From Cellvibrio sp. 79 (lineage in GTDB: Bacteria; Pseudomonadota; Gammaproteobacteria; Pseudomonadales; Cellvibrionaceae): 64,000 nucleotides of DNA. Where the stretch lies: assembly GCA_003056245.1 (NCBI GenBank), contig MVDH01000002.1:124001-188000 (forward strand), written 5' to 3'. Both the position numbers and the translations under genes were made by a program. The first letter of the stretch is position 1; each line of letters begins with the position of its first letter. Shown one piece after another: positions 3,623 to 31,473 of this stretch. Below the pieces are notes generated by a model, which was not told where the DNA came from, searched no databases, and saw nothing but the letters and a program-made list of their open reading frames with translations.

Positions 3623-6600
3623 ATGAACAGACTAATAACCAGGATGACCCGGCGCTATGCCGATGGTGGCCGAAGAGGCCATAAACTGATGCTATGGCTC
3701 TCCGCCCTTGGGCTGAGTTTTTCGGCTGCCGTTCCCGCCGTAGCCCAAGCGCCAAAGGCGGTAGATTTCCAGCGCGTAACCGTTGCAGAGGGCCTGGACT
3801 TGCCCATGGAGTTTGAAATTTCCGCTGATGGCCGCGCCTTTGTCGTGAGCAAATGCGGCAAGTTTTACGGCTGGAAACTGGATGGCGGCACGGCCACACA
3901 AACCTCGACGGTGCCGAACGTGCGTTGCGTCTTTGAAGATGGCTTATTGAGCCTGGCGCTGGACCCGAACTTTACCCAGAACAATTATCTCTACGTGCAG
4001 TACACCTCGCCCGGCAGTAAGACGCGGGTGTCGCGCTTTACCGTGAATGCGAATAACGGTTTGAACACCGCCTCGGAATCCATCCTGCTGGAGTGGACCA
4101 CCGGCAATGAAGCCCACGGCCATATGGGCGGCAGTTTGAAGTTTGATAAGGACGGCAATCTGATTATCACAACGGGTGATAACAATGCGGCGTCCGGCTA
4201 TTTCTCGGCGGGTGCACAAGCGACATCCGGCAATACCAATGACTTGCGCGGTAAAGTGCTGCGTATCAAGCCTACTGCGGACGGCAAATACACCATTCCT
4301 GCCGGCAACCTGTTCCCGGCAGATGCCACCCATCGCGCGGAAATTTACGGCATGGGCTTTCGCAACCCTTTCCGGATCAACCTCGATCCGCTCACCGGTT
4401 ATCTGTATGTGGGCGATATCGGTCCGGACGCTTCAGCCGATAGCGCCGAAGGTCCCGGTGGGTTGGACGAGTTGAATGAGTTGCGTGCTGCCGGCAATTA
4501 CGGTTGGCCGCATATCATTGGTTTTAACCAGCCTTACGCCGGTTTTAACCCGAATAACATCGTGAATAATTACGCGACCAATACCGGCGCGAAGAACCTG
4601 CCGGCCGCAAAGCCGGCGTTGTGGACGATTCGTCACCAGGCCACAATGTCCGGCCCGGTGTATCGCTTTAACGAGGCGATCAAAAATGATTTCAAGTTGC
4701 CCGCGTATTACGACGGCCGTTTGATTTTCTGGGATTTCAACAGCAGCAAATTCTTCACCATCAACCTCGCGGCGGGTGCAAATCCACCCGTTGCCGAAGA
4801 ATTCCCACTAAATACCGGCGGTGTGCAAGGTGCGATTGATGCCGAACTTGATCCACGTACCCAGCAGCTTTATGTGTTGCAGTGGGGCTCGGGTTGTTGC
4901 GATAAGGAGCCCTTCAACAATGGCATGTTGTATCGCTTTGATTACATCGGCGGGCGAGATAACGGCACCAACGTTTCGCTCGGTAGCGTAGCGACAGCGA
5001 CCTCGGCGGTTGGCGGCAATGCGGCGGCCTATGCGGTTGATGGCGACCCGACGACCCGTTGGGAAAGTGCGACGTCTGATCCGCAGACGCTGACGATCGA
5101 TCTGCGCCAGGACACCAAAATCGCCACCATCGTGCTCAAATGGGAAGCGGCATTCAGCTCCAAATATGTGATTGAAGCATCTACTAATGGCACAAACTGG
5201 GAGTTGTTAGCTAGCGAAGCCAATGGTACCGGCGGCACCAAGTTACATCTGATCAATTCCACCAAAACCTATCGCTATGTGCGTTTGACCGGCACCGCGC
5301 GCGGTACCGCTTACGGGCATTCACTGTTTGAGTTTGAGGTTTATACGGGTACCGATACGGTGCCGGAAGAGCCCTTAACCCAATACGCGTACCTGAATAT
5401 GCCGAAGACTCTGGATGCAGCCTATACCGGTGTACCCAAGCTACTTTCCCAAACCGGCGCATTCAGCAATACCGCGAATATGACACCAAGTACGAACTTG
5501 TTACCCTTTGCGCCGAACAGCCAGTTGTGGTCCGACCATGCGGCTAAATCCCGCTGGATCTCCATTCCTGCGACCAAAAAAATCAAATGGGATGCGAAAA
5601 ATAATTGGGTTTACCCGCAAGGTACCGTGGTGGTGAAACATTTCTCCCTGCCTACCAATGTAAATAACCCGGCGATCACCAAACGCCTGGAAACTCGCCT
5701 GATCGTGGTGAAAGCCGATGGCAAGATTTACGGTGTGACCTACAAGTGGCGTGCGGACAATAGCGATGCGGACTTACTGACTGCTGGTCAATTGGAAAAC
5801 ATCAATATCACCAACGCCAACGGCACCACCGGTACCCAGACCTGGGCTTACCCGAGCCCGACCGAATGTATGGATTGCCACAACGCCCAATCGGCGCAGG
5901 TCCTCGGGCTGAGCACGCGCCAGTTAAACGGCAATTTCACGTATTCCAATGGGGTAGAAAACCAGTTGGTGCGCTGGAATAACCTCGGTTTGTTCTCACC
6001 GGCATTCAACAATACCCAAGTGGCGACCTTCGACAAAATGGTGCCGCTGACCGATACCAGCGCCTCGCTGGAAACCCGGATCAAATCCTATCTGGATGCT
6101 AACTGCGCCCACTGCCATGGCACCGGCCAGGGCGGTTCGCAATGGGATGCGCGTTTCAATACCCCGCTCGCGCAGATGCAGATTGTGAATCAAACCACGA
6201 CCGGTATCCGCAACTACCAAAATGATTACGGGATCGCGAATGCCAAGGTGATTGCCGCCGGTAATCCGCTTGAATCGATTCTGTATATCCGCGACAAGAG
6301 CGTTAACACCAATGATCGTATGCCACCGATTGGCCGTTTGGTGGAGCACAAGGAGTACATCGATTTACTGAACCAGTGGATTACCAGCCTCGCTAACACC
6401 CAGCCGCAGGAAAAAGTGTTGTTGTCGCGTGGCAAGCCGGTGACCACTTCATCATTTGAAGGCGGTTTTATCGGGACCAATGTCGTGGATGGCAATGCCC
6501 AGACTCGTTGGGGTAGTGAGTTTACTGATCCACAATGGATCGAGATCGACCTGCAAACCGCTTACAACATCAGCGAAATCCGCCTGCAATGGGAAGCGGC

Positions 6601-9160
6601 CTTTGGCAAAAACTATGTGATTGAAGGCTCGCTGGATCGCACCGGCTGGTCGCCCATCGTGAACAAAACCAATGGCGTGGGTGGCCTTGAAGTGCACAAC
6701 GCAGCGGGTAAGTATCGTTACATTCGTTTGACCGGTACCGCGCGCGGCACGGTGTGGGGTTATTCGCTGTTCGAGTTCGAAGTGTGGGGCAGTACGGATG
6801 CGCCGGTACAAACTCCAACTATCACGCTGACGACTCCGGCCTCCGGCCAGCAATATACCCAGGGTACGGCGGTGAGTTTGCAGGTAGCAGTGTCTGATGC
6901 AGCCTGGTTTACCGCTGGTGGCCGCTACCGCTACACGCTGGATACCAATGCAGCGGTTACCGTGGCGAACATTAATCCAGTGAACCTCGGGGCGCTGGCC
7001 GTTGGTGCGCATACCATCAATGTGCAGTTGTATAACGCGGCCGGGCAGGCGGTTGGTACGGCGAAGACTGCATCGTTCACGGTGAATGCAACATCAACCA
7101 CGCCCGTGCTTGTCTCGCAGGGCAAAACTGTCACCACCTCGGCGGTGATTGGCGGCAACACCGGTGCGGCGGCGGTGGATGGCAATATGGGTACACGCTG
7201 GGAAAGTATCTTTGCGGATAACCAATACATCCAGATCGACCTGGGTTCCAAAATGGCGATCAGCCGCGTATTGCTTGAGTGGGAAACTGCTTACGGTAAG
7301 GGCTATTACATCGAAGTATCCGACAACGCCACCCAGTGGACCGAAATCTTCCGTACTACCACCGGCAACGGCGCGCAGGATGATTTAACGGTAAGCGGGC
7401 AGGGCCGTTATATCCGCCTGACCGGTACTGCACGCGGCACACAATACGGCTTCTCACTGTGGGAATTCCGTGTGTACGGCAGCCCGGCTGATGTGGTTAC
7501 TACACCGACTATCAGTATTTCCGCGCCCACTGCTGGCCAGCAATTCACACAAGGCACCAATGTGAGTTTGCAGGTGGCGATTTCCGACAGCGCCTGGTTT
7601 ACCGGTGGTGGAGCCTATCGTTATTCGGTAAATGGCGGTGCGGCGGTACGAATTGCCAATGCCACTGCGGTAAATCTGGGGGCGCTCGGTGTAGGTAACC
7701 ACAGCGTGCAGGTCACCCTGGTGAATGCGCAAAACCAGGCGGTGGGTACTAGCTCGACCGTTAACTTTAGCGTGCGCACTACCAGTACCAATCCTGTGAC
7801 GCCAAGCCCGGCCAAACTGACTCCTGTTGGGGCGACTGCATCCAGCTTTGTCGGTGCCGGTACGGCAGCGGCGGCTATCGATGGCAATGTGGCGACCCGT
7901 TGGGAAAGTGCTACCAGTGATCCGCAGTACATCCAACTGGATCTGGGCAAGAGCACTTACTTCACCCGCGTTGTGCTGAATTGGGAAGCGGCTTACTCGA
8001 AGGCTTACACCATCGATGTATCGGAAAACGGTGCTGATTGGGTGAATGCCTATACCACGGCGAATAGCGATGGAGGAATTGATGACCTGGTATTGGATGG
8101 TCAGAGAGGTCGCTACATCCGTATGCGCGGTACCGCGCGTGCCACCGGTTACGGCCATTCGCTGTTCGAGTTTGATACCTACGGGATTGCGGCGGATACC
8201 AATCCCGCGCTAGTGAGTTTTGTATTACCAGCGGCAGATGCGGCCATCCCGCAAATCCAGGCGGTAACCTTCCAGGTCGGTATTACCGATGCTAACTGGA
8301 TCGCCAACGGCGGCGGTTACAACTACTACCTCGATACCAATGCGGCGGTGCGCGTGAATAACCTGAATGCGGTAAACCTCGGTTTACTGCCGACCGGTCA
8401 ACACACGTTGAAAGTGAGCCTGGTGGACAGTCGCGGTGTGGAAGTGAGCGTGCCGAAAATCCGTAAGTTCCGGGTCAGTTGCGGCACCACTTGTCCGAAG
8501 GTACTGGTGTTCTCCAAAACTGCCGGCTTCCGCCATGACTCCATTGCGGCTGGCATCGCCATGATCCAGCAAATTGGAACTGCCAACGGTTATTCGGTGA
8601 CGGCGACAGAAGATTCCGCGGTCTTTACCACCGCGAACCTCGCGCAGTACTCCACCATCGTATTCCTGAATACCACGGGCGATATTTTCAATGCCGCCCA
8701 GGAAGCCGCGTTCAAAACCTACATGGAAACGGGTGGCGGTTTTGTTGGCACCCATGCGGCAGCGGATACCGAACACGATTGGGATTGGTACACCGACACG
8801 CTGTTTGCCGGTGCGGAATTTATCCATCACGGCGATGGAATCCCGCGTGCGCGAGTGGTGATCGAGAAACCCAATAACGATCTGGTAAAACACATCGGCA
8901 CCGAATGGATGCTCGCGGATGAGTGGTATTTCTGGAAAACCAGCCCGCGCAATAACGGTACGGTAGAAGTGCTCGGCACCCTGGATCGTTCGAGTTACAC
9001 CTCGAATTATCCGGTTGCTGATCACCCGGTTATCTTCACCAACAGAATCGGTACTGGCCGCATGTTCTACACGGCCATCGGCCATGTGGACGCGAATTTC
9101 GCGGATGCCAAAACCGTTGAAATGATTCGCAAAGCGATTGAATGGACCTCTGCTGATTGA
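3623..9160 (+). CDS. Giant secreted PQQ sugar dehydrogenase / diheme cytochrome / F5-8C / ThuA fusion
   Basis: 1845 residues from the ATG at 3623, chosen over 3596 because GGAG sits 7 bases upstream and a signal peptide follows (residues about 20-43, ending AVAQA). Domains in order: PQQ-type glucose/sorbosone dehydrogenase beta-propeller (about 46-443; GHMGGSLKF, RGKVLRIKP, GFRNPFRI); F5/8C (discoidin-like) domain 1 (450-576); SO2930/HNE_0200-like cytochrome region (588-928) with heme sites CMDCH at 749-753 and CAHCH at 828-832; F5/8C 2 (933-1056); Ig-like 1; F5/8C 3 (1162-1290); Ig-like 2; F5/8C 4 (1397-1525); Ig-like 3; and a ThuA-like domain (1625-1845; KTAGFRHDSI, THAAADTEHDW). Likely role: periplasmic or extracellular oxidation of a sugar with electrons passed to the attached hemes, anchored on glycan by F5/8C domains. 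The PQQ propeller resembles CAZy AA12 and related families. The substrate is unknown. A TonB receptor follows after a terminator. Confidence 0.85.
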   Translation: MNRLITRMTRRYADGGRRGHKLMLWLSALGLSFSAAVPAVAQAPKAVDFQRVTVAEGLDLPMEFEISADGRAFVVSKCGKFYGWKLDGGTATQTSTVPNVRCVFEDGLLSLALDPNFTQNNYLYVQYTSPGSKTRVSRFTVNANNGLNTASESILLEWTTGNEAHGHMGGSLKFDKDGNLIITTGDNNAASGYFSAGAQATSGNTNDLRGKVLRIKPTADGKYTIPAGNLFPADATHRAEIYGMGFRNPFRINLDPLTGYLYVGDIGPDASADSAEGPGGLDELNELRAAGNYGWPHIIGFNQPYAGFNPNNIVNNYATNTGAKNLPAAKPALWTIRHQATMSGPVYRFNEAIKNDFKLPAYYDGRLIFWDFNSSKFFTINLAAGANPPVAEEFPLNTGGVQGAIDAELDPRTQQLYVLQWGSGCCDKEPFNNGMLYRFDYIGGRDNGTNVSLGSVATATSAVGGNAAAYAVDGDPTTRWESATSDPQTLTIDLRQDTKIATIVLKWEAAFSSKYVIEASTNGTNWELLASEANGTGGTKLHLINSTKTYRYVRLTGTARGTAYGHSLFEFEVYTGTDTVPEEPLTQYAYLNMPKTLDAAYTGVPKLLSQTGAFSNTANMTPSTNLLPFAPNSQLWSDHAAKSRWISIPATKKIKWDAKNNWVYPQGTVVVKHFSLPTNVNNPAITKRLETRLIVVKADGKIYGVTYKWRADNSDADLLTAGQLENINITNANGTTGTQTWAYPSPTECMDCHNAQSAQVLGLSTRQLNGNFTYSNGVENQLVRWNNLGLFSPAFNNTQVATFDKMVPLTDTSASLETRIKSYLDANCAHCHGTGQGGSQWDARFNTPLAQMQIVNQTTTGIRNYQNDYGIANAKVIAAGNPLESILYIRDKSVNTNDRMPPIGRLVEHKEYIDLLNQWITSLANTQPQEKVLLSRGKPVTTSSFEGGFIGTNVVDGNAQTRWGSEFTDPQWIEIDLQTAYNISEIRLQWEAAFGKNYVIEGSLDRTGWSPIVNKTNGVGGLEVHNAAGKYRYIRLTGTARGTVWGYSLFEFEVWGSTDAPVQTPTITLTTPASGQQYTQGTAVSLQVAVSDAAWFTAGGRYRYTLDTNAAVTVANINPVNLGALAVGAHTINVQLYNAAGQAVGTAKTASFTVNATSTTPVLVSQGKTVTTSAVIGGNTGAAAVDGNMGTRWESIFADNQYIQIDLGSKMAISRVLLEWETAYGKGYYIEVSDNATQWTEIFRTTTGNGAQDDLTVSGQGRYIRLTGTARGTQYGFSLWEFRVYGSPADVVTTPTISISAPTAGQQFTQGTNVSLQVAISDSAWFTGGGAYRYSVNGGAAVRIANATAVNLGALGVGNHSVQVTLVNAQNQAVGTSSTVNFSVRTTSTNPVTPSPAKLTPVGATASSFVGAGTAAAAIDGNVATRWESATSDPQYIQLDLGKSTYFTRVVLNWEAAYSKAYTIDVSENGADWVNAYTTANSDGGIDDLVLDGQRGRYIRMRGTARATGYGHSLFEFDTYGIAADTNPALVSFVLPAADAAIPQIQAVTFQVGITDANWIANGGGYNYYLDTNAAVRVNNLNAVNLGLLPTGQHTLKVSLVDSRGVEVSVPKIRKFRVSCGTTCPKVLVFSKTAGFRHDSIAAGIAMIQQIGTANGYSVTATEDSAVFTTANLAQYSTIVFLNTTGDIFNAAQEAAFKTYMETGGGFVGTHAAADTEHDWDWYTDTLFAGAEFIHHGDGIPRARVVIEKPNNDLVKHIGTEWMLADEWYFWKTSPRNNGTVEVLGTLDRSSYTSNYPVADHPVIFTNRIGTGRMFYTAIGHVDANFADAKTVEMIRKAIEWTSAD

Positions 9161-9181
9161 TCCCCGTTTGGGTTAATGACC

Positions 9182-9215
9182 AACCCGCATCGTGAAAGCG
9201 ATGCGGGTTTATTTT
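9182..9215 (+). terminator. Rho-independent terminator after the fusion gene
   Basis: An 11-bp perfect stem pairs AACCCGCATCG (9182-9192) with CGATGCGGGTT (9199-9209) around a 6-base loop TGAAAG, followed by TATTTT. It lies between the fusion gene stop (9160) and the TonB receptor start (9246), so the receptor is either read through or has its own promoter in a very short interval. Confidence 0.75.
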
Positions 9216-9245
9216 GCGCGTTAAAAATAAAGACGAGAGTTGTAA

Positions 9246-11144
9246 ATGAAGAACAATGCAAAGAATTTACTCCCGGCAACCCTGCTGTTGGCTATGACAA
9301 CCGCGGTCGCCCAACAGCCTGCATCAGTAGCGGAGCAAGTGATTGTCACCGGCACCTATCACCCGCTCGCGGCGGGGCAGGTGTCATCCAGCGTCAGTGT
9401 GCTGGACCAGGAAACCATCGGACAGCTCAACAAAACCAATCTGGCCGATTTGCTGGAATCCGTACCCGGGGTGTTGATTGAACGCCAGGGCGGCCCCGGT
9501 GGTTTGGCGGTGGCCTCAATTCGCGGCGCGGAAACCAACTACACATTGGTGATGCTCGATGGCGTCGCCATGAATGACCCCGGCAACAGTCGCGGTGGTG
9601 CGTTTGACCTGGGCAGCATTAATGTGGAATCCATCGACCGTATTGAAATTGTGCGCGGCCCGCAGTCGGCGATTTATGGTGCGGATGCCTTGGGCGGCGT
9701 GATCAATATTATTACCCTGCGCCCATCAGCGGGGCATCAACAAACCCTGTCTGTATCGGCGGGCAGTGATGATTATCAGCGTACGGGCTTGAGCGCCCTT
9801 GGCAAAGCGGGAGCCATCGATTACGTATTACAAGCACGGGTGCGCGACAGCGGCGAGCCGGTTAAAGGCAGTGCGGCGGAAGATAGCGAAATCAATCTTC
9901 GCCTCGGTTGGCAACCGGCAGATGCACACCGGTTGTCGGCAAGTTTCCGTTATTTCGACGGCGAACGCACCAGTTACCCGGAGCAAAGCGGCGGTCCGGA
10001 ATTTGCGTTGTCACCACTGCTGGATCGCACCGAATTTACCGACAAAAGTACCGCGCTTGGCTGGCAATATCAGGTTGCGGAGCGCTGGAAAAGTCAGGTA
10101 CAGGCAACCCTTTACCAGCGCGATGAAACATTTGCTTCTCCCGGCATCGCTCCCTATTTCGCCATTCCTCCCAATGGTGCGGATACTGACTTCGAACGCC
10201 AGCAAGTTTCCTGGATTAACACCCTCGGTCAACCGGGAAAACTCTGGGGAAATGTGGGGGTGGAGCAGCGCAGGGAAGAGGGCGATAGTAGCGGCTATCT
10301 GGATGTCGGCATGTTGATGCCGACCGACTTTGCACTGGATCGTCGCACAGACAGCGTCTTTGCTGATATCAACTCACAAATCACCGACCAGCTCCTGCTG
10401 CAAGCTAGCCTGCGCAACGATGAGACCGATGATTTTGGCAACCAGACTTCATCCCGGTTGGGTTTGAAATATCAACTTACAGAACCGCTAGCCCTGCGCG
10501 CCAACTGGGGCAACGGCTACAAATTGCCGAGCTTTTTTGCCTTGGGTCATCCGCTGGTTGGAAACGAAGATTTAAAACCGGAGCAGGTCGATAGTTGGGA
10601 TATTGGCATCGACTGGGCGCTCACCAACCAGTTATCAACCGGAGTGAATTATTTCGCCAACGACTTTCGCGATCCCATCGATTTTGATAGCGAACTCTTC
10701 ACCAACGTCAATCGCGAGCAGGTGGAAACCAGCGGTGTTGAATGGCAATTGCAGTGGCAGAGTGAGGATGATCGCGTCCATCTACGCGGCAACGCGACTT
10801 ATACCGACATTGATGTGAAAGACAGCGTTTCGGTATTAACCGGTCGGCCCCAATGGCAAGCGGGATTGGCCTTGGCGTGGCAAATCAGCGATCACTGGCG
10901 CAGTAGCCTGGATTACCAGCGAGTCGGCGAACAATTTGCGACCAGCCAGCATACCGGCACGGCAACGCTCCACGAACTGGATGCTTACCAGCGCGTAAAT
11001 GCGTCGTTGTTCTGGTCAATCAGCGATGCGCTAGTGATGGATTTTGCGGTGGAAAATTTGTTCGATGCCGAGGCTACAACGGCGGTGGGATTTCCTGCTG
11101 CGGGGTTATCGGCCCGGGTAGGATTGCGCTGGACAGTTCAGTGA
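9246..11144 (+). CDS. TonB-dependent outer membrane receptor (BtuB-like size)
   Basis: 632 residues with a signal peptide (cleaved near AVAQQ), a TonB-box-like EQVIVTG at about residue 30, a plug domain (SVSVLDQETI, LLESVPGV, IRGAETNYTLVMLDG, IVRGPQSAIYGADALGGVINI) and a 22-strand-type barrel. This is the short BtuB/CirA-like class. It would import a ligand across the outer membrane with TonB energy. No cobalamin riboswitch can fit in the 85 bases upstream, so B12 is not supported as the ligand. Its position just downstream of a PQQ sugar dehydrogenase suggests transport of an oxidised sugar or of PQQ itself (TonB receptors for PQQ exist). That is speculation. The barrel ends in WTVQ, without the usual terminal aromatic residue. 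Confidence 0.88.
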   Translation: MKNNAKNLLPATLLLAMTTAVAQQPASVAEQVIVTGTYHPLAAGQVSSSVSVLDQETIGQLNKTNLADLLESVPGVLIERQGGPGGLAVASIRGAETNYTLVMLDGVAMNDPGNSRGGAFDLGSINVESIDRIEIVRGPQSAIYGADALGGVINIITLRPSAGHQQTLSVSAGSDDYQRTGLSALGKAGAIDYVLQARVRDSGEPVKGSAAEDSEINLRLGWQPADAHRLSASFRYFDGERTSYPEQSGGPEFALSPLLDRTEFTDKSTALGWQYQVAERWKSQVQATLYQRDETFASPGIAPYFAIPPNGADTDFERQQVSWINTLGQPGKLWGNVGVEQRREEGDSSGYLDVGMLMPTDFALDRRTDSVFADINSQITDQLLLQASLRNDETDDFGNQTSSRLGLKYQLTEPLALRANWGNGYKLPSFFALGHPLVGNEDLKPEQVDSWDIGIDWALTNQLSTGVNYFANDFRDPIDFDSELFTNVNREQVETSGVEWQLQWQSEDDRVHLRGNATYTDIDVKDSVSVLTGRPQWQAGLALAWQISDHWRSSLDYQRVGEQFATSQHTGTATLHELDAYQRVNASLFWSISDALVMDFAVENLFDAEATTAVGFPAAGLSARVGLRWTVQ

Positions 11145-11156
11145 GGGCTTAGTCGT

Positions 11157-11178
11157 ACCGGGCAATTTATTGCCCGGT
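11157..11178. terminator. Hairpin between convergent genes
   Basis: A 9-bp perfect stem pairs ACCGGGCAA with TTGCCCGGT around the loop TTTA. It lies between the convergent TonB receptor and PepSY genes, where a bidirectional terminator is expected. No clear T-run follows on either strand, so function is uncertain. Confidence 0.45.
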
Positions 11179-11198
11179 GTTAATGCTATTGCCCTGTG

Positions 11199-11564
11199 TT
11201 ACTGGCTAATAATCTGGCCGGTCTGGCCATCAACCCGGACTACTTTCATCCGGCCCGAGTTAAGCACTTTTACACCATAGATCACGCCAGTTTCAGTGTG
11301 CTGGCTATTAACACCCATCACTTGGCCACCGGTAGAGCGGCGCACCAAATCAGCGGCTTGGGCCGGGGTGATTTTGGGCGGTTGGGTATCGTTATTGATA
11401 CTGCTGCTGTCAATCATGCTGTTGCCGGGGGTGCTGGAGGCCAGCCCCATATCGCCATCCAGGAAATCGGGTTCGGCGCTTGCGGGTTGAACAGTTACCA
11501 ATGCAAAAGCCAGCAAAGTGCTGGCTAGTGGTGGAACAAATTGTGTGATCAATGTGAACTTCAT
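11199..11564 (-). CDS. Small secreted PepSY-domain protein
   Basis: 121 residues from the ATG at 11564, where a signal peptide begins (MKFTLITQF, cleavage near QPASA). Earlier in-frame starts would place noncoding DNA before it. After a low-complexity stretch rich in Ser and Asn, the C-terminal 60 residues look like one PepSY domain (ITPAQAADLVRRSTGG, GVIYGVKVL, VVRVDGQTGQII). PepSY domains are thought to inhibit or modulate peptidases or to act in the periplasm of two-component loci; the target here is unknown. The gene lies downstream of a divergent or convergent set with no obvious operon partner. Confidence 0.65.
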   Translation of the reverse strand: MKFTLITQFVPPLASTLLAFALVTVQPASAEPDFLDGDMGLASSTPGNSMIDSSSINNDTQPPKITPAQAADLVRRSTGGQVMGVNSQHTETGVIYGVKVLNSGRMKVVRVDGQTGQIISQ

Positions 11565-11679
11565 ACTACTGGGTCCGGCAATACTTGTTGCAACAAGATT
11601 TATGCATTCACTATCGCCGCTGTTGCTGCAAAGGTCAATTTCACCGTTGCGGTTTTTAATCACAGATAACCTTGAACGA

Positions 11680-12258
11680 TTATCTGTGACGGATGCGGTC
11701 GCCAGGGTGATGACGGGTTTCGGTGTGGTAAATCCGGCCGCCATATAAGTAACTCACTTCATAACCCACCAACTGCCGCTCATAACGTGTGCGATATTGG
11801 GTGGAGCAAACTTCACGATCTTCATAGCGGGTTACGGTACGGCTACCACCGGCAACATCATTACCGATAGCAGCGCCAATCAAACCACCGGCGGCAGTTG
11901 CATGGCCGCTATGGCCCATTTCTTTACCAATCGCTGCACCAATCAAACCGCCGACCACGGTGCCTTTGAATGAATCACCGCCGCGTTGACGCTCGCGATA
12001 CTCTACGGTTTCCACCCGGCAGGAATCGCGCGGAACATCAACCGCCACTTCGCGATAAATTGGCTGAACATCGGTCACCGGTGCATAGTAGTCACGCTCA
12101 TAAACCACCACGCGTTCGTGATGAACCGTGGTGTGGTGATGATGGTGATGCCTGTCGTTATGACGTTTATGGTGGTGATGATCACGATCCGCCAACGCGT
12201 TGTTTGCCAGCAACAGGCTGACGCTGGCCAAAGTGCTGATAAGTAACAGGCGTTTCAT
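11680..12258 (-). CDS. Glycine-zipper 2TM protein with His-rich N-terminus
   Basis: 192 residues with a signal peptide (MKRLLLISTLASVSLLLANNALA) followed directly by a histidine cluster (HHHHKRH, then HHHHHH). Two glycine-zipper helices follow (GGLIGAAIGKEMG and GGLIGAAIGNDVAGG), typical of the Rick_17kDa/glycine-zipper 2TM envelope proteins. The C-terminus again is rich in Tyr, Arg and His (GGRIYHTETRHH). Such proteins sit in the outer membrane or periplasm with poorly known roles. The His clusters suggest metal binding, which is inference. Confidence 0.7.
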   Translation of the reverse strand: MKRLLLISTLASVSLLLANNALADRDHHHHKRHNDRHHHHHHTTVHHERVVVYERDYYAPVTDVQPIYREVAVDVPRDSCRVETVEYRERQRGGDSFKGTVVGGLIGAAIGKEMGHSGHATAAGGLIGAAIGNDVAGGSRTVTRYEDREVCSTQYRTRYERQLVGYEVSYLYGGRIYHTETRHHPGDRIRHR

Positions 12259-12490: not shown

Positions 12491-12542
12491 CGCGGCCATT
12501 TTTTCCAAACTGCATTTTGGGCTTTCCCGCACAGGTTGTTTC

Positions 12543-13817: not shown

Positions 13818-13820
13818 TCC

Positions 13821-22102: not shown

Positions 22103-22121
22103 TCGCTAGAATCAGTTCGCT

Positions 22122-23059: not shown

Positions 23060-23082
23060 TCTGCAAAACGATTATCCGGTAA

Positions 23083-23114
23083 AAATAAGGCAGCCCTGGC
23101 TGCCTTATTTTTTT
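23083..23114 (+). terminator. Rho-independent terminator after DUF805 gene
   Basis: An 11-bp stem pairs AAATAAGGCAG with CTGCCTTATTT around CCCTGG, followed by a run of T. It ends the DUF805 transcription unit. Confidence 0.85.
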
Positions 23115-23653
23115 ACATTAAATTATTATTTTCTGCCTGTTTTTTTGCATTGATACTCGCTTCTATTGATTATCACCGCCTTACGGCCATTAATTACGAT
23201 GGCAACGCTTGCCCTCAAATTTATAACATCAATGCCAGGTTATATTGCTGGCGGTTTTATCGATAAATTGAATTGCTTGTGCATACGTATTCATATTGCC
23301 GGTCCCCACTCATAAAACTATTCTGTTTCAATGGTCTTTTATAAAAATCGTTTTAACGATAGAAAAATAGCTTTTGCATAATAAAGATGAATTCAGACCG
23401 TTATTGCCCGCGTTGGCTAAACGCCTTTTAAATACTCTTACATAGAAAATTGGTTCAGTAGCAATGGCAGCAGGTTTTCTTGCAGCCAGGGAATCTGCGC
23501 AATTTTTTGCTCGATTGGAAAATGATGCAAGTTTTTTCTCGGATGTGAATGCATCTGCGGGATTACCTTTGCCTGAAAATTTTCCATTCACATAACAATA
23601 ATATTTCCAGGTGTGCTAATTCCCGGCGACCTGGTTTTCTGTGGGAGAAGGCT
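23115..23653. other. 540-base AT-rich noncoding region
   Basis: No supported gene is seen between the DUF805 terminator and the second giant fusion. Short frames on either strand lack ribosome binding sites and family features. The region presumably contains the promoter and leader of the fusion gene, but I could not identify a convincing -35/-10 pair or operator. Confidence 0.4.
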
Positions 23654-26600
23654 ATGCATCGCTTATCAACGTGTGTCAGTGAAAAATGGCAGCGCTTTAT
23701 TTTCTGTATTTCTTTTATCTTGTGTGCTTTTGCCTGCACACAATCCGCGCAGGCGCAAAATTGGAGCAACAGTTATTTTCGCGGTACGCCTAACAACTGG
23801 GCTGCTACACCGCTCACCAAAAATACCACCAGTGGCTTGTGGGAAACCCAGCAGGCATTTGCTGGTGCCAATCCGCGCTTCAAAATTAGTCGTTATACGG
23901 ACAACTGGAATGAGGCTTATCCTGCACAGGATTATTTAATTACTGGCGGTGATGGCGATTATAAAATTACCTTTAACGACACCACCAAAGCAGTTGTAGC
24001 CACAAAGCTGCCTCTATCACTTCCTGCAAATAATATTTGTTTCAGTAATCCCAATAATTTTGCCGCACCTTATATTTATTTTTGGAATCCACTGCCCGCT
24101 GGCGCAGTGACCCCTTTGCCCGCTTGGCCCGGTAAGAGTATGACCAAGCGTGGCACTTTTTATTGTTATGATTTCACCACATCGATTCCTGCCGGTATGC
24201 AAATGCCGACATCGCTGGATGTTATTTTTAGCAATAATGGTGCGAACCAAACTGCAAACCTGAAGTTTACCGGCGCGGCTTGTTATGACAACAATGCCTG
24301 GAAAGCGCTGTCGCAATGTGGATTTAGCGTCGCTGCCAATTCATCTGTTGCGAGCAGTTCTTCAGCAGCGAGCGTTTCTTCTGTAGCTGTGTCTTCTTCG
24401 CTTTCATCATCAGCTGCGTCTTCTTCTGCAGTATCGTCATCAGCAGTTGCATCGAGTAAATCCAGTTCCCTCATTGCATCCTCATCAAGCTCGGCTCCCG
24501 CGTCTTCGAGCCAATCGTCGCTTGCAATAAGTTCTTCCAGCAGTTCAGTTGCGCTAACAAAAACGAAAATCTATTTTAAAAATACTGCTAACTGGGCCTC
24601 AGTAAATATTCACTATTTTAATGTGCTGCCCGCGCTAACCGCTTCCACATGGCCGGGCGTGGCGATGGTTAGAAATACCAGCTTGCCCACTTTTTTCAGT
24701 TATGAATTCGCAACAACTGTTAATTCAGCAGGTATTGTTTTTAATTCCAATAGCAATCCAAAAACGGTCGATTTGAATTTTGTTGCACCGAATAATTGTT
24801 ATGACTTTGGTACAGCGAGTTGGAAAACCGCAAGTGCCTGTGGTGTGCCGACTGATTTAGTTGCTAATGCTGGCGTGGATCGCAAAGCCAATATCAATAC
24901 GCGTCAGGCATTATCCGCAGCAGCATCAACCGGTAATTATGCCACCGCAAGTTGGACAAGCACTGCATGGTCAGGCGCGCTGACCGGCAAACACGTTGTT
25001 ACACCGCTACTTACCGCTGTGGGAAATATAACGGTAACGCTCACCTTGACCGCTGCTGATGGCAGCACCGCAATCGATACTATGGTGATCAATGTTGTTG
25101 CTGCAACACAAGCATTACCCGAACGCCCGCAATTGGCGGCACCTTTAGGTTTTCCTATTACCGGTACTGTGAGCACCGGGAAATATCGCTTCGTAAATGC
25201 TTACCCGAATTTAAATGAATTTTTCTTTTCACCGGTGATGGTTACTAACGATGGCATTAACGACTTGGTGTATGTCGTCGATAAAGAAGGTGCGATTTAC
25301 GTATTCCCGAATAAAGAAAATGTCATTGCGACCGAAGTGCGCAAATTGCTGGATATAAAATCCACCGTGCTCAACAACAACGAAAGCGGAATGTTGAGCA
25401 TGGCATTTGATCCTTACTTCGCCACCAATGGTTATATTTATGTGTATTACATTTTTGGTGAGACAGATAATTTTTATCCGCGCACCGATGGCATGGTCGG
25501 TGGTAAAACCGGCGACGCAATTATTGAACGTTGGACTGTCGATAATCCTGCAAATCCAACTTCCGCCGGCTCCAAAGTTGAAGTCTTGCGCATCCCGCAA
25601 ATTGGTGAGGATCACAAAGGCGGCATGATGCAATTTCATCCCACTGAGCATTATTTGTATGTGGGAATAGGTGAGGGTGGATACGGCCACAGTGCATTTG
25701 CACAAAATCCATTGCCGAGTGACCCTTACAATCGCCGCACCAATAACAGCGCGCAAGATCCGACCACACTGCGCGGAAAATTTATTCGCATTGAGCCGCT
25801 AGCCCAAGCGGAAGGCGGAAAATATTATCGCGTACCGGCGGATAATCCTTTTGTTGGTCGCGCAGGATATTTACCGGAAATCTGGTCAATGGGGCATCGC
25901 AATCCATGGCGTTGGGCGTTTGATACGGATGCGCCTTACACTTTGTGGGAAACCGAAATTGGGCAAGATACTGATCTCGCCTACGAAGAGGTGAATATCA
26001 TCACCAAAGGCCAGAATTACGGTTGGCCAGTGTGTGAAGGAACGCGCAACCGTGGCGCACTTGGTGGCGATGCTGCAAAAAATTGTTTAACCGATTTTGT
26101 TCCTCCGCGTGAAGGTTATGGCCGCACGTCCGGTGTGTCCATTATCGGTGGATTTGTTTATCGCGGTAGCGATTTGCCCAATCTCAACGGCAGTTTTATT
26201 TTTGGCGATTACGTCAGTAAACGTCTCTGGTCAGTTGCGAATGATGGGCAAGCGAAAAAATTAATTAGCGAAGCATTCCCGCATTACATTTCATCGATTG
26301 GTAAAGACTTGAAAAAGAATTTACTCATCTCGAGTCACGGTCGTGAGCTTGGTGGGCCTTCCAGTATTTTCAAAGTGGTGGATGATGATCTGGCATCCGC
26401 ACAAATTCCGCCAACACTATCGGCTACCGGCTTATTTGCGGATCTGGTTAATGTAATTCCAGCGCACGGTGTTATCGAATACAGCGTAAATACCAGTGGC
26501 TGGTTTGACGGCGGCAAGGTGCGGCATTTTGTGGCGGTGCCCAATGCGAGCAAAGTGACATTCGATCCGACCGCGATCTGGAATTTACCGGTAGGGTCGG

Positions 26601-29600
26601 TGGTGGTGAAGCATCTTGCCGTTGCGACTTCGGCGAATGCGAATAAACCATTTACTACGTCAGTATTGTTTCGTCAGGAAACCGGATGGCAAGCGGCGAA
26701 TTATCGCTGGAATGCAGCGGGAACTGATGCGAATTTAGTGACTGAATCTTCGGTAGAACCCGACGGTGGTTTGGTGAATGTGGTGCGCAAAGTAGAAACG
26801 GGCAGCACCTGCGCCGGTTGCCATAAAGATGCGGATGGAAAATTAATTCCACTCGCAACAGATACCCGCCAGCTGAATGGTAATTTTAATTACCAGGGTG
26901 TAACTAAAAACCAACTGGAAGTATTTAACGCAATTAATTTATTTACTGCCGGCATTAATAATGGCAGTAGTTACGAAAAATTCGCCACACCAACGGATGC
27001 CAGCGTTGATCTAACGGCGCGCGCAAAATCCTATCTGCACACCAACTGTGCGCACTGCCACTCAGGTATTTCAGGCGGCATGGATATGCGTTACAGCACC
27101 GCATTGGAAGCAATGAAGCTGGTGAATGATCACAACCGTGTAGTGCCGGGAATTCCCGCGAACAGCAATGTCTACAAATACCAAACCGGTGCAGGTATGC
27201 GTATGCCCTATGGTTCTGTTGCAACGAATGCGGATGCCGAAACATTATTCCGCAATTGGATTAACGAACTGGGTGTTGATGTTAGCCAAACCGGAATTGA
27301 TATTACTGCCACCAAATTATCACCCGAAGTAAATGAAGTTGTCGGTTTGAATCTGGAATCGGTGTATAGCAATGGCACACGTTTATCCGCAGCGGGTTCC
27401 GTAACCTGGACATCAAGCAATCCTGCGGTAATGTCTACGCAAGGTAAAACGGGCGCAGCAATAAATGTCACTGCATTATCAACAGGCACAGTAACAATTA
27501 CCGCGAGCAGTGATGGTTATAGCGATAGCATCACCCTGGACATTATTCCTGCATCAAATCCTGTGACTGCTTTAGCTATTGCGGGCACTGCAAATCTGCG
27601 TATTAAAACGGGCGAGATGCAACAACTTGCCGCAGTCGCAACAACAGGTGATGGTTTGTTGGGAATGACTTCGCAAGTAACCTGGACGAGTAGCAATACT
27701 GCAATTGCAAATGTATCGGCAAATGGATTGGTTACTGCGGGTGCTACTGCAGGTACCGCAACTATCACTGCAACTTACAGTGCGATTTCGACAACTTATT
27801 CTGTTACGGGATTAGGTGCTGGCCAATATGTTTATGTAAAAAAACCGGCCGCATGGACGACAGTGAATACTCATATCTGGACTGTTCAGGGAACTATCAG
27901 TACCGATCGTACCGGTACATGGCCGGGGCCTGCGTTAACTGAAACAGCACCTAAATACGGTGCAGGTTGGTTACGCACATTTATCCCGGTTGCATGGGCA
28001 AACACAACGGGCAATACCAATATTATTTTTAGCAACAATAAAGCGAACCAAACCGGAACATTAACTGTAAACCAAGCCAGCCCGAGCTGGTATGACACTG
28101 CTTTGTCAGCCATTGAACCCGTATTACAAGTAGAAGCAGGCACACAAATCCAGGTAGGTAATGGCACTGCGACTATCGCGAGCAGCGCCAACTTGAGCGG
28201 AAAATTATTTGTGCCGGGCACACTGGTGGATATCAAAGCGAATGCCGCTGGCCCAGGAATGAAGTTCGTTCATTGGGAAGGTACAGGTGCTGCCTATTTG
28301 TTGGATGCAAATAGCGCGACTACAAAAATGGTAGTGGGCAATGCGGTTTCGCTCACGTTGCTTGCGGTGTTCGATAGCATCACTGATCAACATCAAGTTG
28401 CGCGCAGCCATTATCAAAGCCAGGGTTGCATTGGTTGTCATGGCAGTGATGGTAACGGCACTCCGTCGTTGCTCGATTTGCAAACGCGCTATACGCAAAC
28501 CAACCTCGCCAATTACATCGCAGCGAATATGCCTAAAGGTAATGTCGGCAGTTGTACTGGCACTTGTGCAACCAGTATTGCCGCGATGATTTTTGCCGAA
28601 GCATTTATTCCGCCTGCGGGTGTTTGCAGTGCAGACAGTCTTGATGATTTGGTTCCGCAAGATCGCAGCTTCCGTTTGCTATCCACACTTGAATACAACA
28701 ATTCGGTGCGCGATTTATTGGGACTGACGAATAATATTGATGTTACTAGTGGACGCATTCCTGCTGATTTGCCAGTGAATGGATTTAAAACCAATGCCAA
28801 CGCAATCTTCACCAACGATTACGCCAAAGGTTATGTGCTAGCGGCAGAAGCGGCGGCAGCAATGGTGAGCAATATTTACAGCCTTACGCCAGGATGCAGT
28901 ACCGCAACTTGTTTTGTGCAGAATTTTGGCAAGCGTGCTTATCGTCGTCCGCTCAGCACAACGGAAGTAAATAAATTGGTTGCGTTGCAAACAGCGCAAG
29001 GCAATGTTGCATTGCTCACCGCGATTCTTTCATCGCCTTCAATGTTGTATCGCTCGGAAGTCGGTGAATTGAAAGGCACCTATTACGAGCTCACCGATTA
29101 CGAAGTTGCCGCTATGTTGTCCTACACCTATTGGGCGACAACACCGGATGCTGCATTGATGGCCGCTGCGGATGCAGGGCAATTAAGTACGCCTGCGCAA
29201 ATTTCTGCCAAGGTTACGCAGATGTTGCAAGATCCTAAAGCAAAAATTGCTTTTGAGCGTTTCGTTACTGGTTGGCTGGATCTTGATAAAGAAATCAAAA
29301 CCACAGCGATCAGTGCAAGCCTCAAAGCTGATATGAAAACCGAAACTATTGAGTTGGTAAAACGCACGGTATTTGGTGGTGGCAGTTACAACGAATTGCT
29401 CAACGCTAATTACAGCTACATGACGCAGCAGCTCGCCACCCATTACGGTTTAACTTGGCCGGGCGGCAGTGGTGTACAGCGTGTGGATTACAACGCGGCC
29501 AATGCGGAGCGTCGTGGTGTATTAGGGCATGCAGGAATTCTTGCGATCCAATCAGCATCGGAAAAAACACATCCGGTAAAACGTGGTTTGTTTGTACGGC

Positions 29601-30127
29601 GCAATTTGCTCTGTCAGGATTTCCCTCCACCACCGGTAGGTGCGGAATTAAAACCGCAGGAAGATCCAAGCCTCACAGTGCGTGAACGTTTTGAACATGC
29701 GCATTTGAAAGAGGGATGTGAGTCCTGCCATCAATATATCGACGGCATTGGTTTCGGTTTGGAAAATTACAATGCGCTCGGTTTGTACGTTACTACCGAG
29801 AAAACTGACAACGGTTTGATTAAAGCGATTAACTCGCTCGGTTATATTGGCAGCTTGAATTCGGCGGAAACTTATTTGTCCGAATCAGAACCGGTAGTGC
29901 CTTATCAGGGTATGGATGAATTAGCGGGTTTAATTGCGGGCAGCTCTAACGCAAAAGCCTGTTACGTGCGGCAATGGTATCGCTACACACGCGGCCAACT
30001 GGAAGAGGTTACCGATAGTTGTACGCTGCAAGTATTTGGTAAAACCTTCAAGGAATCGAGCAATGCCAGCATGTTGGATTTGATGATCCAATTTACTCAA
30101 ACTAAAAACTACATCTTGCGTAAATAA
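23654..30127 (+). CDS. Giant secreted CBM / PQQ sugar dehydrogenase / multiheme / DUF1592 fusion
   Basis: 2157 residues from the ATG at 23654 (GGGAGAAGG just upstream; an upstream in-frame start lacks a signal). Order: signal peptide (to about 36, SAQAQN); N-terminal module FRGTPNNW (36-118) as in starch enzymes; CBM26-like module (125-223); poly-serine linker (230-301); second CBM26-like module (303-398); PKD-like domain (400-481); PQQ sugar dehydrogenase propeller (490-906; GHRNPWRWAF); SO2930-like cytochrome region (915-1205) with heme sites CAGCH 1053 and CAHCH 1132; two Big-2 domains (1216-1388); third CBM26-like module (1390-1488); a repeat-like domain; cytochrome c with CIGCH 1592; and DUF1587/1592/1588/1585-type C-terminus (about 1670-2157) with CESCH 2022. 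Likely an extracellular sugar oxidase with an internal electron path; the substrate may be an alpha-glucan judging by CBM26. A DUF1552 gene follows after 17 bases. Confidence 0.85.
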   Translation: MHRLSTCVSEKWQRFIFCISFILCAFACTQSAQAQNWSNSYFRGTPNNWAATPLTKNTTSGLWETQQAFAGANPRFKISRYTDNWNEAYPAQDYLITGGDGDYKITFNDTTKAVVATKLPLSLPANNICFSNPNNFAAPYIYFWNPLPAGAVTPLPAWPGKSMTKRGTFYCYDFTTSIPAGMQMPTSLDVIFSNNGANQTANLKFTGAACYDNNAWKALSQCGFSVAANSSVASSSSAASVSSVAVSSSLSSSAASSSAVSSSAVASSKSSSLIASSSSSAPASSSQSSLAISSSSSSVALTKTKIYFKNTANWASVNIHYFNVLPALTASTWPGVAMVRNTSLPTFFSYEFATTVNSAGIVFNSNSNPKTVDLNFVAPNNCYDFGTASWKTASACGVPTDLVANAGVDRKANINTRQALSAAASTGNYATASWTSTAWSGALTGKHVVTPLLTAVGNITVTLTLTAADGSTAIDTMVINVVAATQALPERPQLAAPLGFPITGTVSTGKYRFVNAYPNLNEFFFSPVMVTNDGINDLVYVVDKEGAIYVFPNKENVIATEVRKLLDIKSTVLNNNESGMLSMAFDPYFATNGYIYVYYIFGETDNFYPRTDGMVGGKTGDAIIERWTVDNPANPTSAGSKVEVLRIPQIGEDHKGGMMQFHPTEHYLYVGIGEGGYGHSAFAQNPLPSDPYNRRTNNSAQDPTTLRGKFIRIEPLAQAEGGKYYRVPADNPFVGRAGYLPEIWSMGHRNPWRWAFDTDAPYTLWETEIGQDTDLAYEEVNIITKGQNYGWPVCEGTRNRGALGGDAAKNCLTDFVPPREGYGRTSGVSIIGGFVYRGSDLPNLNGSFIFGDYVSKRLWSVANDGQAKKLISEAFPHYISSIGKDLKKNLLISSHGRELGGPSSIFKVVDDDLASAQIPPTLSATGLFADLVNVIPAHGVIEYSVNTSGWFDGGKVRHFVAVPNASKVTFDPTAIWNLPVGSVVVKHLAVATSANANKPFTTSVLFRQETGWQAANYRWNAAGTDANLVTESSVEPDGGLVNVVRKVETGSTCAGCHKDADGKLIPLATDTRQLNGNFNYQGVTKNQLEVFNAINLFTAGINNGSSYEKFATPTDASVDLTARAKSYLHTNCAHCHSGISGGMDMRYSTALEAMKLVNDHNRVVPGIPANSNVYKYQTGAGMRMPYGSVATNADAETLFRNWINELGVDVSQTGIDITATKLSPEVNEVVGLNLESVYSNGTRLSAAGSVTWTSSNPAVMSTQGKTGAAINVTALSTGTVTITASSDGYSDSITLDIIPASNPVTALAIAGTANLRIKTGEMQQLAAVATTGDGLLGMTSQVTWTSSNTAIANVSANGLVTAGATAGTATITATYSAISTTYSVTGLGAGQYVYVKKPAAWTTVNTHIWTVQGTISTDRTGTWPGPALTETAPKYGAGWLRTFIPVAWANTTGNTNIIFSNNKANQTGTLTVNQASPSWYDTALSAIEPVLQVEAGTQIQVGNGTATIASSANLSGKLFVPGTLVDIKANAAGPGMKFVHWEGTGAAYLLDANSATTKMVVGNAVSLTLLAVFDSITDQHQVARSHYQSQGCIGCHGSDGNGTPSLLDLQTRYTQTNLANYIAANMPKGNVGSCTGTCATSIAAMIFAEAFIPPAGVCSADSLDDLVPQDRSFRLLSTLEYNNSVRDLLGLTNNIDVTSGRIPADLPVNGFKTNANAIFTNDYAKGYVLAAEAAAAMVSNIYSLTPGCSTATCFVQNFGKRAYRRPLSTTEVNKLVALQTAQGNVALLTAILSSPSMLYRSEVGELKGTYYELTDYEVAAMLSYTYWATTPDAALMAAADAGQLSTPAQISAKVTQMLQDPKAKIAFERFVTGWLDLDKEIKTTAISASLKADMKTETIELVKRTVFGGGSYNELLNANYSYMTQQLATHYGLTWPGGSGVQRVDYNAANAERRGVLGHAGILAIQSASEKTHPVKRGLFVRRNLLCQDFPPPPVGAELKPQEDPSLTVRERFEHAHLKEGCESCHQYIDGIGFGLENYNALGLYVTTEKTDNGLIKAINSLGYIGSLNSAETYLSESEPVVPYQGMDELAGLIAGSSNAKACYVRQWYRYTRGQLEEVTDSCTLQVFGKTFKESSNASMLDLMIQFTQTKNYILRK

Positions 30128-30144
30128 CTGAGGAGGGCATTAAG

Positions 30145-31473
30145 ATGAATGTATTAAAAAATAAAATGCAGCGTCGCGATTTCCTGCGCAGTATTGCCAA
30201 GTTGGGTTTGACTACCGCATTCACCAGTCAATTTATGTTGTCGGCCAATGTGTTTGCACAAACGGCAGGTGCCAAGCGTTTTATCATGGTGTATTACCCG
30301 AATGGTTGTGTGCGCGACAAATGGCATTCCTACAACGCGGGTGCGTTGGGTAGCAGCAGTTTTGCTACCAGCCCGCTGCAACATTTAAATTCGCACATCA
30401 CTAAAATTGTGCCGATAAAAAATCTCACCTATAACGGCCATGGCGGAAGCTCTGGCCATCCGGAAGCCTGTCGTGCGGTATTTTCCGGTGGGCAAGAATA
30501 TGCGACCACATTTGATGTCGCGATTGGTGAAGCGCTTGGAGGTCGCCTTACCAAAAATATGCACGTGGGTGTTTGGTCGAGCAAAGCCAAGGGCACTGAA
30601 TATATGCCTTTCACCGACAAGAATCGCAACAAAATACAAGTGTCGGATAATCCGCAACAAGTGTATGACGCATTGCTTGCTGACGTTGTAGGTAATGGCA
30701 CCGGCACGCCCGACCCGGATGCGGAGCGGCGCAAAAAAGTATTGGAAACCCTGCATGAAAATCTGGATTTATTGCAAGCCAATACGCTCAATGTAAAACA
30801 ACAAGGAAAATTATTAACCCACGAAGAAGCGCTTAATTATTATCAGAATACGTTGGCGGGTACGTTGGATATTGGCGGCACTGGCTTTGCGCGCCCCACT
30901 ATCGGCATGACCGGTGTTGATGACGACGCAGATGCAATTGCCAAAGCGCAAATGCGCAATATCGCCATGGCATTCCAGGCAAATGTTACGCGCACTGCAA
31001 CCTTCCAATTTATGGGCGCACAAGATGAATCCTTAAGAATAATTTCTCCCGATATCAGACCCTACATGGGCGATTACGGTTCCGGAGTAAAATTAACCTA
31101 CAACGAAACCCGCAGCCACGTCAGTTCACACAATGAGTCATCGCTATTCGATGCGCAAACCCGTTGGTACAACATTATGGTCTCCTACCTAATGGACGAA
31201 CTCGCCGCCCGCCCCGATGTAACTTGCGGCGGAACATTGTTGGATAACACTTTAATTTTAGTAATGTCCGAAGTCGGTGGTGGCAATCATCAACAGGAAA
31301 ACCCTGGAATATATGTTGCGGGTGGCGCGAACAATATGATTCGCTCTGGTAATGCGATTGATGCAAATAATGCGGGGATGTCGAATTTGTATTTGGATAT
31401 TTCCAAAGCGTTTGGTTTGAATTGGGGTAGGTATGGGAATAGTTCGGGAGGGATTGCGGGATTTTTGCGGTAA
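30145..31473 (+). CDS. Tat-exported DUF1552 protein
   Basis: 442 residues with a twin-arginine signal (MQRRDFLRSIAKLGL, then a hydrophobic stretch ending VFAQ). The mature part fits DUF1552 (FIMVYYPNGC, HGGSSGHPEACRAVFSGG, HNESSLFDAQTRWYN, LILVMSEVGGGNHQQ), a family related to alkaline-phosphatase-like proteins. DUF1552 genes commonly sit next to genes for DUF1592/DUF1588 proteins. Here the pair is directly coupled: 17-base gap with GAGGAGGG as ribosome binding site. Tat export implies folding, possibly with a cofactor, in the cytoplasm. Function is unknown; a joint role with the fusion is inference. Confidence 0.85.
   Translation: MNVLKNKMQRRDFLRSIAKLGLTTAFTSQFMLSANVFAQTAGAKRFIMVYYPNGCVRDKWHSYNAGALGSSSFATSPLQHLNSHITKIVPIKNLTYNGHGGSSGHPEACRAVFSGGQEYATTFDVAIGEALGGRLTKNMHVGVWSSKAKGTEYMPFTDKNRNKIQVSDNPQQVYDALLADVVGNGTGTPDPDAERRKKVLETLHENLDLLQANTLNVKQQGKLLTHEEALNYYQNTLAGTLDIGGTGFARPTIGMTGVDDDADAIAKAQMRNIAMAFQANVTRTATFQFMGAQDESLRIISPDIRPYMGDYGSGVKLTYNETRSHVSSHNESSLFDAQTRWYNIMVSYLMDELAARPDVTCGGTLLDNTLILVMSEVGGGNHQQENPGIYVAGGANNMIRSGNAIDANNAGMSNLYLDISKAFGLNWGRYGNSSGGIAGFLR

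Follow-up and report, generated by a model that had tools for sequence, protein, structure and literature searches.

A starch-binding tetrahaem protein of Cellvibrio sp. 79 and its DUF1552 neighbour as a possible relative of the Cbp2D unit

We analyzed a stretch of 64,000 nucleotides (the window) from the 5.7 Mb genome of Cellvibrio sp. 79 (assembly GCA_003056245.1, contig MVDH01000002.1, positions 124,001 to 188,000 of the forward strand; genome G000 and contig C8 in our numbering, in which L stands for a locus). The window contains two large genes for multidomain redox proteins, P0001 and P0002, and directly behind P0002 a gene for a DUF1552 protein, P0003. A first-pass annotation of this DNA had proposed that P0001 and P0002 form one system for sugar oxidation based on pyrroloquinoline quinone (PQQ). 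The observation behind this proposal is real, but our results do not bear out its reading as a single PQQ system for sugar oxidation. The P0002-P0003 pair is better read as a relative of Cbp2D of Cellvibrio japonicus, since the X183 and the X132/PSD features of that protein are both found. Domain calls rest on Pfam and NCBIfam profile searches with curated cut-offs, and 76 genomes were searched, including that of the window and 21 of the genus Cellvibrio. The features of the pair are as follows.

23549-30127, plus strand: P0002, a frame of 2192 amino acids encoding a tetrahaem redox protein with starch-binding modules (Pfam/NCBIfam)
24035-24265, plus strand: first CBM26 copy (Pfam)
24569-24778 and 27830-28063, plus strand: further CBM26 copies (Pfam)
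25109-26338, plus strand: GSDH-type propeller of P0002 (Pfam)
26408-27271, plus strand: TIGR03806-like dihaem region of P0002 (NCBIfam)
28364-28633, plus strand: X183-type cytochrome c domain, like the X183 of Cbp2D (7b21) and TtX183A/B
28673-30100, plus strand: PSD3-PSD5-PSD4-PSCyt3-PSD2 module, corresponding to the X132 region at the C-terminus of Cbp2D
30145-31473, plus strand: P0003, a DUF1552/HXXSHH protein with a twin-Arg leader and conserved H105, H226, H325, H329, H382 and D124

P0002 probably starts at the ATG at 23654, which would lie ahead of a signal peptide. Its GSDH match covers residues 575-902 and its TIGR03806-like match residues 954-1241; two of its four CxxCH motifs (residues 1088 and 1167) fall in the dihaem region, and the PSCyt3 domain, also with a CxxCH, lies at about 29510-29797. 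PSD2 scores 23.5, below its cut-off of 25.8, and there are additional Big_2 and cytochrome c matches. All CBM26 matches of the genome are confined to P0002. This architecture recurs in 33 P0002-type genes, each with four CxxCH, as does that of P0001 in 13 P0001-type genes, each with two (the gene of the window is counted in both cases), and thus neither is due to chance. The nearest named relatives of P0002 come from Cellvibrio mixtus J3-8 (89%) and, at 85-86%, from other Cellvibrio, and a gammaproteobacterial metagenome-assembled genome also matches at 89%. P0002-type pairs are moreover found in named records of Microbulbifer, Gilvimarinus, Marinagarivorans, Catenovulum, Colwellia, Pseudoalteromonas and an uncultured Arenicella; the Pseudoalteromonas relative, which adjoins a DUF1552 gene, carries the NCBI name "starch-binding protein".

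P0003 starts 17 bp past P0002, has an RRDFL motif close to its N-terminus and matches PF07586 (HXXSHH/DUF1552) with 96.9 bits against a cut-off of 30 bits. Its predicted model matches the fold of the alkaline phosphatase superfamily (VIA Z). In this superfamily the nucleophile usually lies ahead of the helix after the second strand, and metal ligands lie near a late strand. In the model of P0003, H105 is found just ahead of the helix after the second strand and H382 after a late strand, so that H105 would occupy the usual place of the nucleophile and H382 would be near the usual metal ligands. For the PSD module, searched together with the X183 part, Foldseek gave no match at E <= 0.001, and the VIA rows lie mainly over the X183 part; we do not take this as a sign of a new fold.

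DUF1552 proteins can be numerous: there are eight matches in the genome of the window, at least 24 in G029 and at least 25 in G047. We compiled a set of 159 DUF1552 genes, de-duplicated on the last 150 residues, which leaves some truncated copies in place: L177 (with L189), L178 (with L186) and the fragment at L062/L098. From the match table, 40 places in the genus and 60 others were added to the loci collected before; the matches outside this selection are mostly those of G029, G031, G046 and G047. A PSD gene adjoins 151 of the 159 DUF1552 genes and is upstream in 150 cases. The eight unpaired genes comprise five at the edge of their locus (L226, L227, L242, L281, L098), a tandem second copy near an edge (L298), a fragment of 203 amino acids (L062) and one close to where its retrieved stretch begins (L268). 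A DUF1552 neighbour is present at all 33 distinct complete P0002-type loci, and the PSCyt3 haem motif is found in the partner of 147 of the 151 paired genes. Over 30 loci (L099 and L102, in which phmmer found no frame, and the truncated L111 were left out), the distance correlation is 0.985 for PSD and DUF1552, 0.956 for propeller and dihaem region, and 0.594 for propeller and PSD; these values rest on non-independent distances and are given without p-value. Moreover, the propellers of L057 and L091 are 63% and 53% identical to that of P0002, whereas the order is reversed for the PSD module (36% and 71%) and for DUF1552 (27% and 72%). The correlations and these two loci suggest that two modules are exchanged within the chain, the second of which moves together with the neighbouring gene.

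In the 147 haem-bearing pairs the residues of P0003 listed above are highly conserved: H105 is kept in 146, H325 in 138, H329 in 142 and H382 in 143, position 226 is His in 117 and Tyr in 24, and position 124 is Asp or Glu in 145. Four orthologous pairs from four Cellvibrio genomes (L086, L237, L239, L240), in contrast, have a PSD gene without any CxxCH, and PSCyt3 is missing in L086, the one of these four that was scanned with Pfam. In their DUF1552 proteins, positions 226, 329 and 382 are Asn, and position 325 is either Ala or Gly. Combined loss of 226, 325 and 329 occurs in none of the 147 haem-bearing pairs. Even though it reflects a single event, this coupled loss of the PSD haem and four DUF1552 histidines is striking. 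The member of this group in the genome of the window, on contig C9 (L086:5554-9028), is a CBM2-PSD protein without CxxCH beside the His-poor DUF1552. In the same assembly, C4, of 7320 bp, and C7, of 6822 bp, are very short contigs made up mostly of Cbp2D-like/DUF1552 loci, so that this paralog set may be only partly resolved.

Which described proteins does the pair resemble? The gene at L185:6426-9794 encodes the exact X183 of PDB entry 7b21 and is therefore taken as Cbp2D; its length of 1122 amino acids is that of the published protein. Its Pfam order is CBM2, YceI, cytochrome c, PSD3, PSD5, PSD4 and PSCyt3, and since the PSD domains follow X183 we equate the X132 region of Cbp2D with the PSD/PSCyt3 module. 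In the X nomenclature its composition is CBM2, X158, FN3, X183 and X132, and a DUF1587 (PSD3) annotation in Cbp2D was already given in PMC8981238. A twin-Arg DUF1552 gene lies 47 bp 3' of cbp2D. We found no mention of it in the available text of PMC12542752, PMC10916295 and PMC8981238; the first contains no DUF-word there, and the single one in each of the other two denotes a domain within the protein. Cbp2D and P0002 thus have in common a carbohydrate-binding module (CBM), an X183 cytochrome, the PSD/PSCyt3 (X132) module and a DUF1552 gene directly 3'. They differ in that Cbp2D has CBM2 and YceI instead of CBM26, that no propeller/dihaem core was found in it and that its gene is preceded by the presumed cbp2E.

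A further relative is TERTU_3803 of Teredinibacter turnerae, composed of CBM10, CBM2, X122, pf08450-X173, X183 and X132 (PMC10916295). L187, which is TERTU_3803-like by architecture, combines a propeller, an X183-type cytochrome and a PSD module in a single chain with DUF1552 3'. It differs in having two propeller-type domains (SGL, GSDH) and CBMs of the cellulose type, and TIGR03806 finds nothing in it at E <= 1e-5. L188, which is close to TERTU_2913, also has a PSD module and a DUF1552 neighbour; TERTU_2913 has no CBM in its chain, unlike Cbp2D, TERTU_3803 and P0002 with its three CBM26. L057, which is probably cbp26A of C. japonicus, shares CBM26, propeller, dihaem region, X183, PSD and an adjoining DUF1552 gene with the window pair, from which it differs by the low identities of PSD and DUF1552 relative to the propeller given above. 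Finally, PSCyt3-PSD genes of Planctomycetes and Verrucomicrobia have the same domains, in some cases CBMs, and a conserved gene neighbour, but no function is assigned to them and their products are predicted to be periplasmic or cytoplasmic (PMC5615132). This neighbour is probably DUF1552, a term that occurs three times in the available text of the article, and the PSD-DUF1552 pairing is thus probably already known in Verrucomicrobia.

Among these X183-X132 redox proteins, a role in growth on insoluble polysaccharide is known for Cbp2D only. Growth on insoluble cellulose is reduced when cbp2D or cbp2E is deleted and is lost altogether in a multiple mutant, for which the authors suggest a new mechanism of direct cutting (PMC12542752). 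cbp26A is upregulated on starch, mannans and xyloglucan (PMC12542752) and is among the top genes on fungal necromass (PMC11497827). A Cellvibrio CBM2 DUF1592 protein is tabulated in a study of a lignocellulose community (PMC6004670).

Architecture, gene pairing, co-evolution, predicted fold and the coupled haem/His loss in one lineage lead us to propose that P0002 and P0003 are a secreted starch-binding redox unit of the Cbp2D/TERTU_3803 type, in which the PSD module and DUF1552 are catalytic. We give this reading about an even chance. For the metal, electron path, substrate and reaction we infer the following. The CBM26 domains would, judging by their family, anchor P0002 on a starch-like alpha-glucan. 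The propeller and the dihaem region would supply or relay electrons, which may reach the PSCyt3 haem of the PSD module by way of the X183 haem. Together with the Tat-exported DUF1552 protein, the PSD module would form a single catalytic unit, whose multi-His and probably metal-binding DUF1552 site would act on the polymer or on an oxidant near it.

Several points weigh against this proposal. The model of P0003 is middling (pLDDT 74.8), its Foldseek TM-scores to the superfamily are about 0.3-0.4, and the clustering of the five DUF1552 histidines is presumptive. H325 or H329 is missing from the alignment in 13 of the 147 haem-bearing pairs, two of them because of gaps. The four pairs without haem are one orthologous group, so that the coupled loss counts as one event, and they retain H105 and D124. 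The response of cbp26A in C. japonicus covers mannan, xyloglucan and fungal necromass besides starch (PMC12542752, PMC11497827), and G018 contains another frame with CBM26, 4012 amino acids long, which weakens the assignment of L057. In the literature searched we found no report of an activity for PSD, X132 or DUF1552, nor of a DUF1552 gene deletion. P0002 is moreover surrounded by housekeeping genes rather than starch genes; dacA and/or DUF58 are present in the fetched flanks of 7 of the 12 other P0002-type loci (L058-L061, L064, L065, L067), and neither is found in those of L057, L062, L063, L066 and L068.

P0001, which the first-pass annotation had joined to P0002, lies upstream with the following features.

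3596-9160, plus strand: P0001, 1854 amino acids, with propeller, F5/8C, dihaem region, three F5/8C and ThuA (Pfam/NCBIfam)
3746-4915, plus strand: GSDH-type propeller of P0001, catalytic His, Arg and Asn present, RxR pair missing
5435-6391, plus strand: TIGR03806-like dihaem region of P0001 (NCBIfam)
8498-9148, plus strand: ThuA domain of P0001 (Pfam)
9246-11144, plus strand: BtuB-like TonB-dependent receptor, 85 bp 3' of P0001

Within the frame, the ATG at 3623 is the start used by the first-pass annotation. The GSDH match covers residues 67-308 (Pfam), the TIGR03806-like match residues 614-932 and ThuA residues 1635-1851; both CxxCH (residues 758 and 837) are inside the dihaem region. One of the four F5/8 type C stretches (Pfam) separates the propeller from the dihaem region, an insert that P0002 does not have, and for two of them the nearest PDB entries are glucanase/chitosanase domains. 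What had been noted is confirmed, and its reading holds in part: both proteins appear to be secreted redox proteins, with homologous cores in the order propeller then SO2930-like dihaem region (GSDH and TIGR03806-like matches) and different carbohydrate-binding domains (F5/8 C and CBM26), and P0001 is near a TonB receptor as P0002 is paired with a Tat-type DUF1552 protein.

Whether the two are sister fusions is another matter. There are four TIGR03806-like places in the genome of the window, and 40 of the 76 genomes have a match. In a 76-row tree of propeller and dihaem region, which includes incomplete second copies of genes from the window and its genome, the cores of the P0001-type and those of the P0002-type each form one group, with free-standing members of about 770 amino acids between them. 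A 40-row mixture-model tree rejects a single clade of both types (p-AU 0.025); this is moderate evidence from one quick tree with long branches flagged. The cores of the two fusions are homologous, but they are probably not each other's closest relatives. Among the 21 Cellvibrio genomes, six have both types, two only the P0001-type, five only the P0002-type and eight neither, and co-occurrence is not significant (Fisher, one-sided p 0.12). Of the seven genomes with both types among all 76, six have a readable distance; the genes are close in two of these (G000 and G010) and 85-405 kb apart in G007 (assuming a circular contig), G012, G018 and G023, whereas in G008 they are on different contigs. 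The P0002-type pair keeps dacA or DUF58 nearby at 7 of 12 other loci, while proA and the other neighbours in the window are beside a P0001-type gene only at L076 (G010) among 12 other loci. The closeness of P0001 and P0002 in the window therefore looks accidental, and distribution, position and phylogeny speak against one joint system, a reading that we reject. In the explanation that we favour, P0001 stands apart as a relative with a TonB receptor of its own and does not supply a second half of the P0002 system.

Orthologs of this receptor (66-84%) are found in five other Cellvibrio genomes, each adjoining a P0001-type gene, so that the receptor adjoins 6 of the 13 P0001-type genes; one of the 13 (L082) is only 2 kb from a contig end. 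A 47-48% relative adjoins the P0002-type pair in G018. However, relatives at 46-53% are present in most Cellvibrio genomes searched, which is why we draw no link to that pair. A histidine kinase and a response regulator (1029-3112 of the window) are divergent from P0001, and such a pair is beside a P0001-type gene only at L076 (G010) among the 12 other loci, some of them short-flanked. Two shorter P0001-type genes without a receptor have a dihaem oxidoreductase gene (PF06537) directly 5' (L072:3238-5562, L074:12573-15014). Another P0001-type gene is followed by one for a 1304-amino acid protein with GH16-like, Glyco_hydro_cc, CBM6 and F5/8 C domains (L075:11661-15575), hinting at beta-glucan for P0001-type proteins. 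Further away (54936-59805 of the window) there is a TonB receptor that carries a CarboxypepD_reg-like domain, and behind it a protein with a phytase domain (PF02333).

Both proteins could still be PQQ sugar dehydrogenases that produce aldonic acids and pass electrons to lytic polysaccharide monooxygenases (LPMOs) or the respiratory chain, with PQQ being imported. We consider this unlikely. The GSDH Pfam matches of P0001 and P0002 are above cut-off, and in a MAFFT alignment of 110 propellers with E. coli YliI (13 P0001-type, 33 P0002-type, 24 free-standing, 40 mostly from Bacteroidota) every row retains the catalytic His and the Arg-Asn pair. They presumably correspond to His144, Arg228 and Asn229 of soluble PQQ glucose dehydrogenase (sGDH), with the roles that these have there; the positions agree with printed alignments. 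A Lys is found within three columns of YliI Lys 314 in 46 of the 110 rows, the Lys column itself being unaligned. However, neither Arg of the RxR pair, which we take to hold PQQ (406/408 in sGDH, 341/343 in YliI), is kept in any of the 110 propellers, although the last blade aligns at low identity. In window-type propellers, which are homologous to those of sGDH and YliI, the Gln after RNP is missing as well. Both proteins stay below the curated score of the TIGR03606 PQQ dehydrogenase model (67.7 and 83.8 against 434.55), as do the two dihaem regions below that of TIGR03806 (237.2 and 161.1 against 313.3), each of which has two CxxCH. PqqC is present in 10 of the 76 genomes, but in none of the 21 of the genus and none of the 18 with a P0001- or P0002-type gene, and the PqqE search gave only a sub-threshold match in the genome of the window, as in all 14 controls. 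The pf08450-X173 pair of T. turnerae neither bound PQQ nor had glucose dehydrogenase activity (PMC10916295). The TonB receptor beside P0001 could bring in a cofactor, but it is nearer to BtuB (26%, 147 bits) than to PqqU (22%, 70.5 bits). It scores 255 bits for TIGR01779 (the B12 receptor), below the cut-off of that model, and 51.6 bits for the PqqU model, and a role as PQQ importer finds no support. Isolated X183 of Cbp2D reduced LPMOs in vitro (PMC8981238), and the genome has six AA10 genes; none of these is on contig C8, so that the proposed feeding of LPMOs finds little support. We know of no AA10 activity on starch. The cofactor of the propeller is doubtful and possibly not PQQ. Most propellers of L130-L171 (Spirosoma, Dyadobacter, Larkinella and other Bacteroidota) are nearer to that of P0001, at about 180-230 bits; these proteins are mostly about 950 amino acids long, lack the RxR pair and give no match to dihaem queries.

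It is likewise improbable that P0002 is merely an electron wire, a multihaem conduit at the surface that serves LPMOs or extracellular acceptors and has PSD and DUF1552 as partners for structure or maturation. The four CxxCH of P0002, the reduction of LPMOs by Cbp2D X183 in vitro (PMC8981238) and the long-range electron delivery suggested by the T. turnerae authors (PMC10916295) would fit a wire. However, five highly conserved histidines in an enzyme-type fold, four of which are lost with the haem in one lineage, suggest catalysis, the TtX183 domains failed to drive their LPMO (PMC10916295), and the single deletion of cbp2D or cbp2E grew worse than that of lpmo10B (PMC12542752, citing earlier work). 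A hydrolase role for DUF1552 (sulfatase/phosphatase-like or lactonase) on substituents or oxidised ends, independent of the redox domains, would suit the predicted sulfatase/alkaline phosphatase superfamily fold but is very unlikely, given that haem and histidines were lost together in the one lineage concerned and that 147 of 151 partners bear the PSCyt3 haem motif.

If P0002 and P0003 are such a Cbp2D-type unit, a wider and rather doubtful extension would make DUF1552 a new class of metalloenzyme, with an alkaline-phosphatase fold whose hydrolytic centre has turned into a five-His metal site. Electrons from PSD/PSCyt3 would drive oxidative cutting of polysaccharides without LPMOs, CBMs would steer the pair, to cellulose in the case of Cbp2D and to starch in that of P0002, the propeller-dihaem core would be a swappable electron source, and the PSCyt3-PSD genes of Planctomycetes and Verrucomicrobia would encode the same machine. 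For the question of how Cbp2D and Cbp2E work, the DUF1552 gene beside cbp2D is a candidate for the missing partner, whose product may carry the catalytic site of the Cbp2D-type unit. The same PSD-DUF1552 pair recurs in large sets of paralogs and in a version that binds starch, and the function of X132 thereby becomes that of a testable two-protein unit with named residues.

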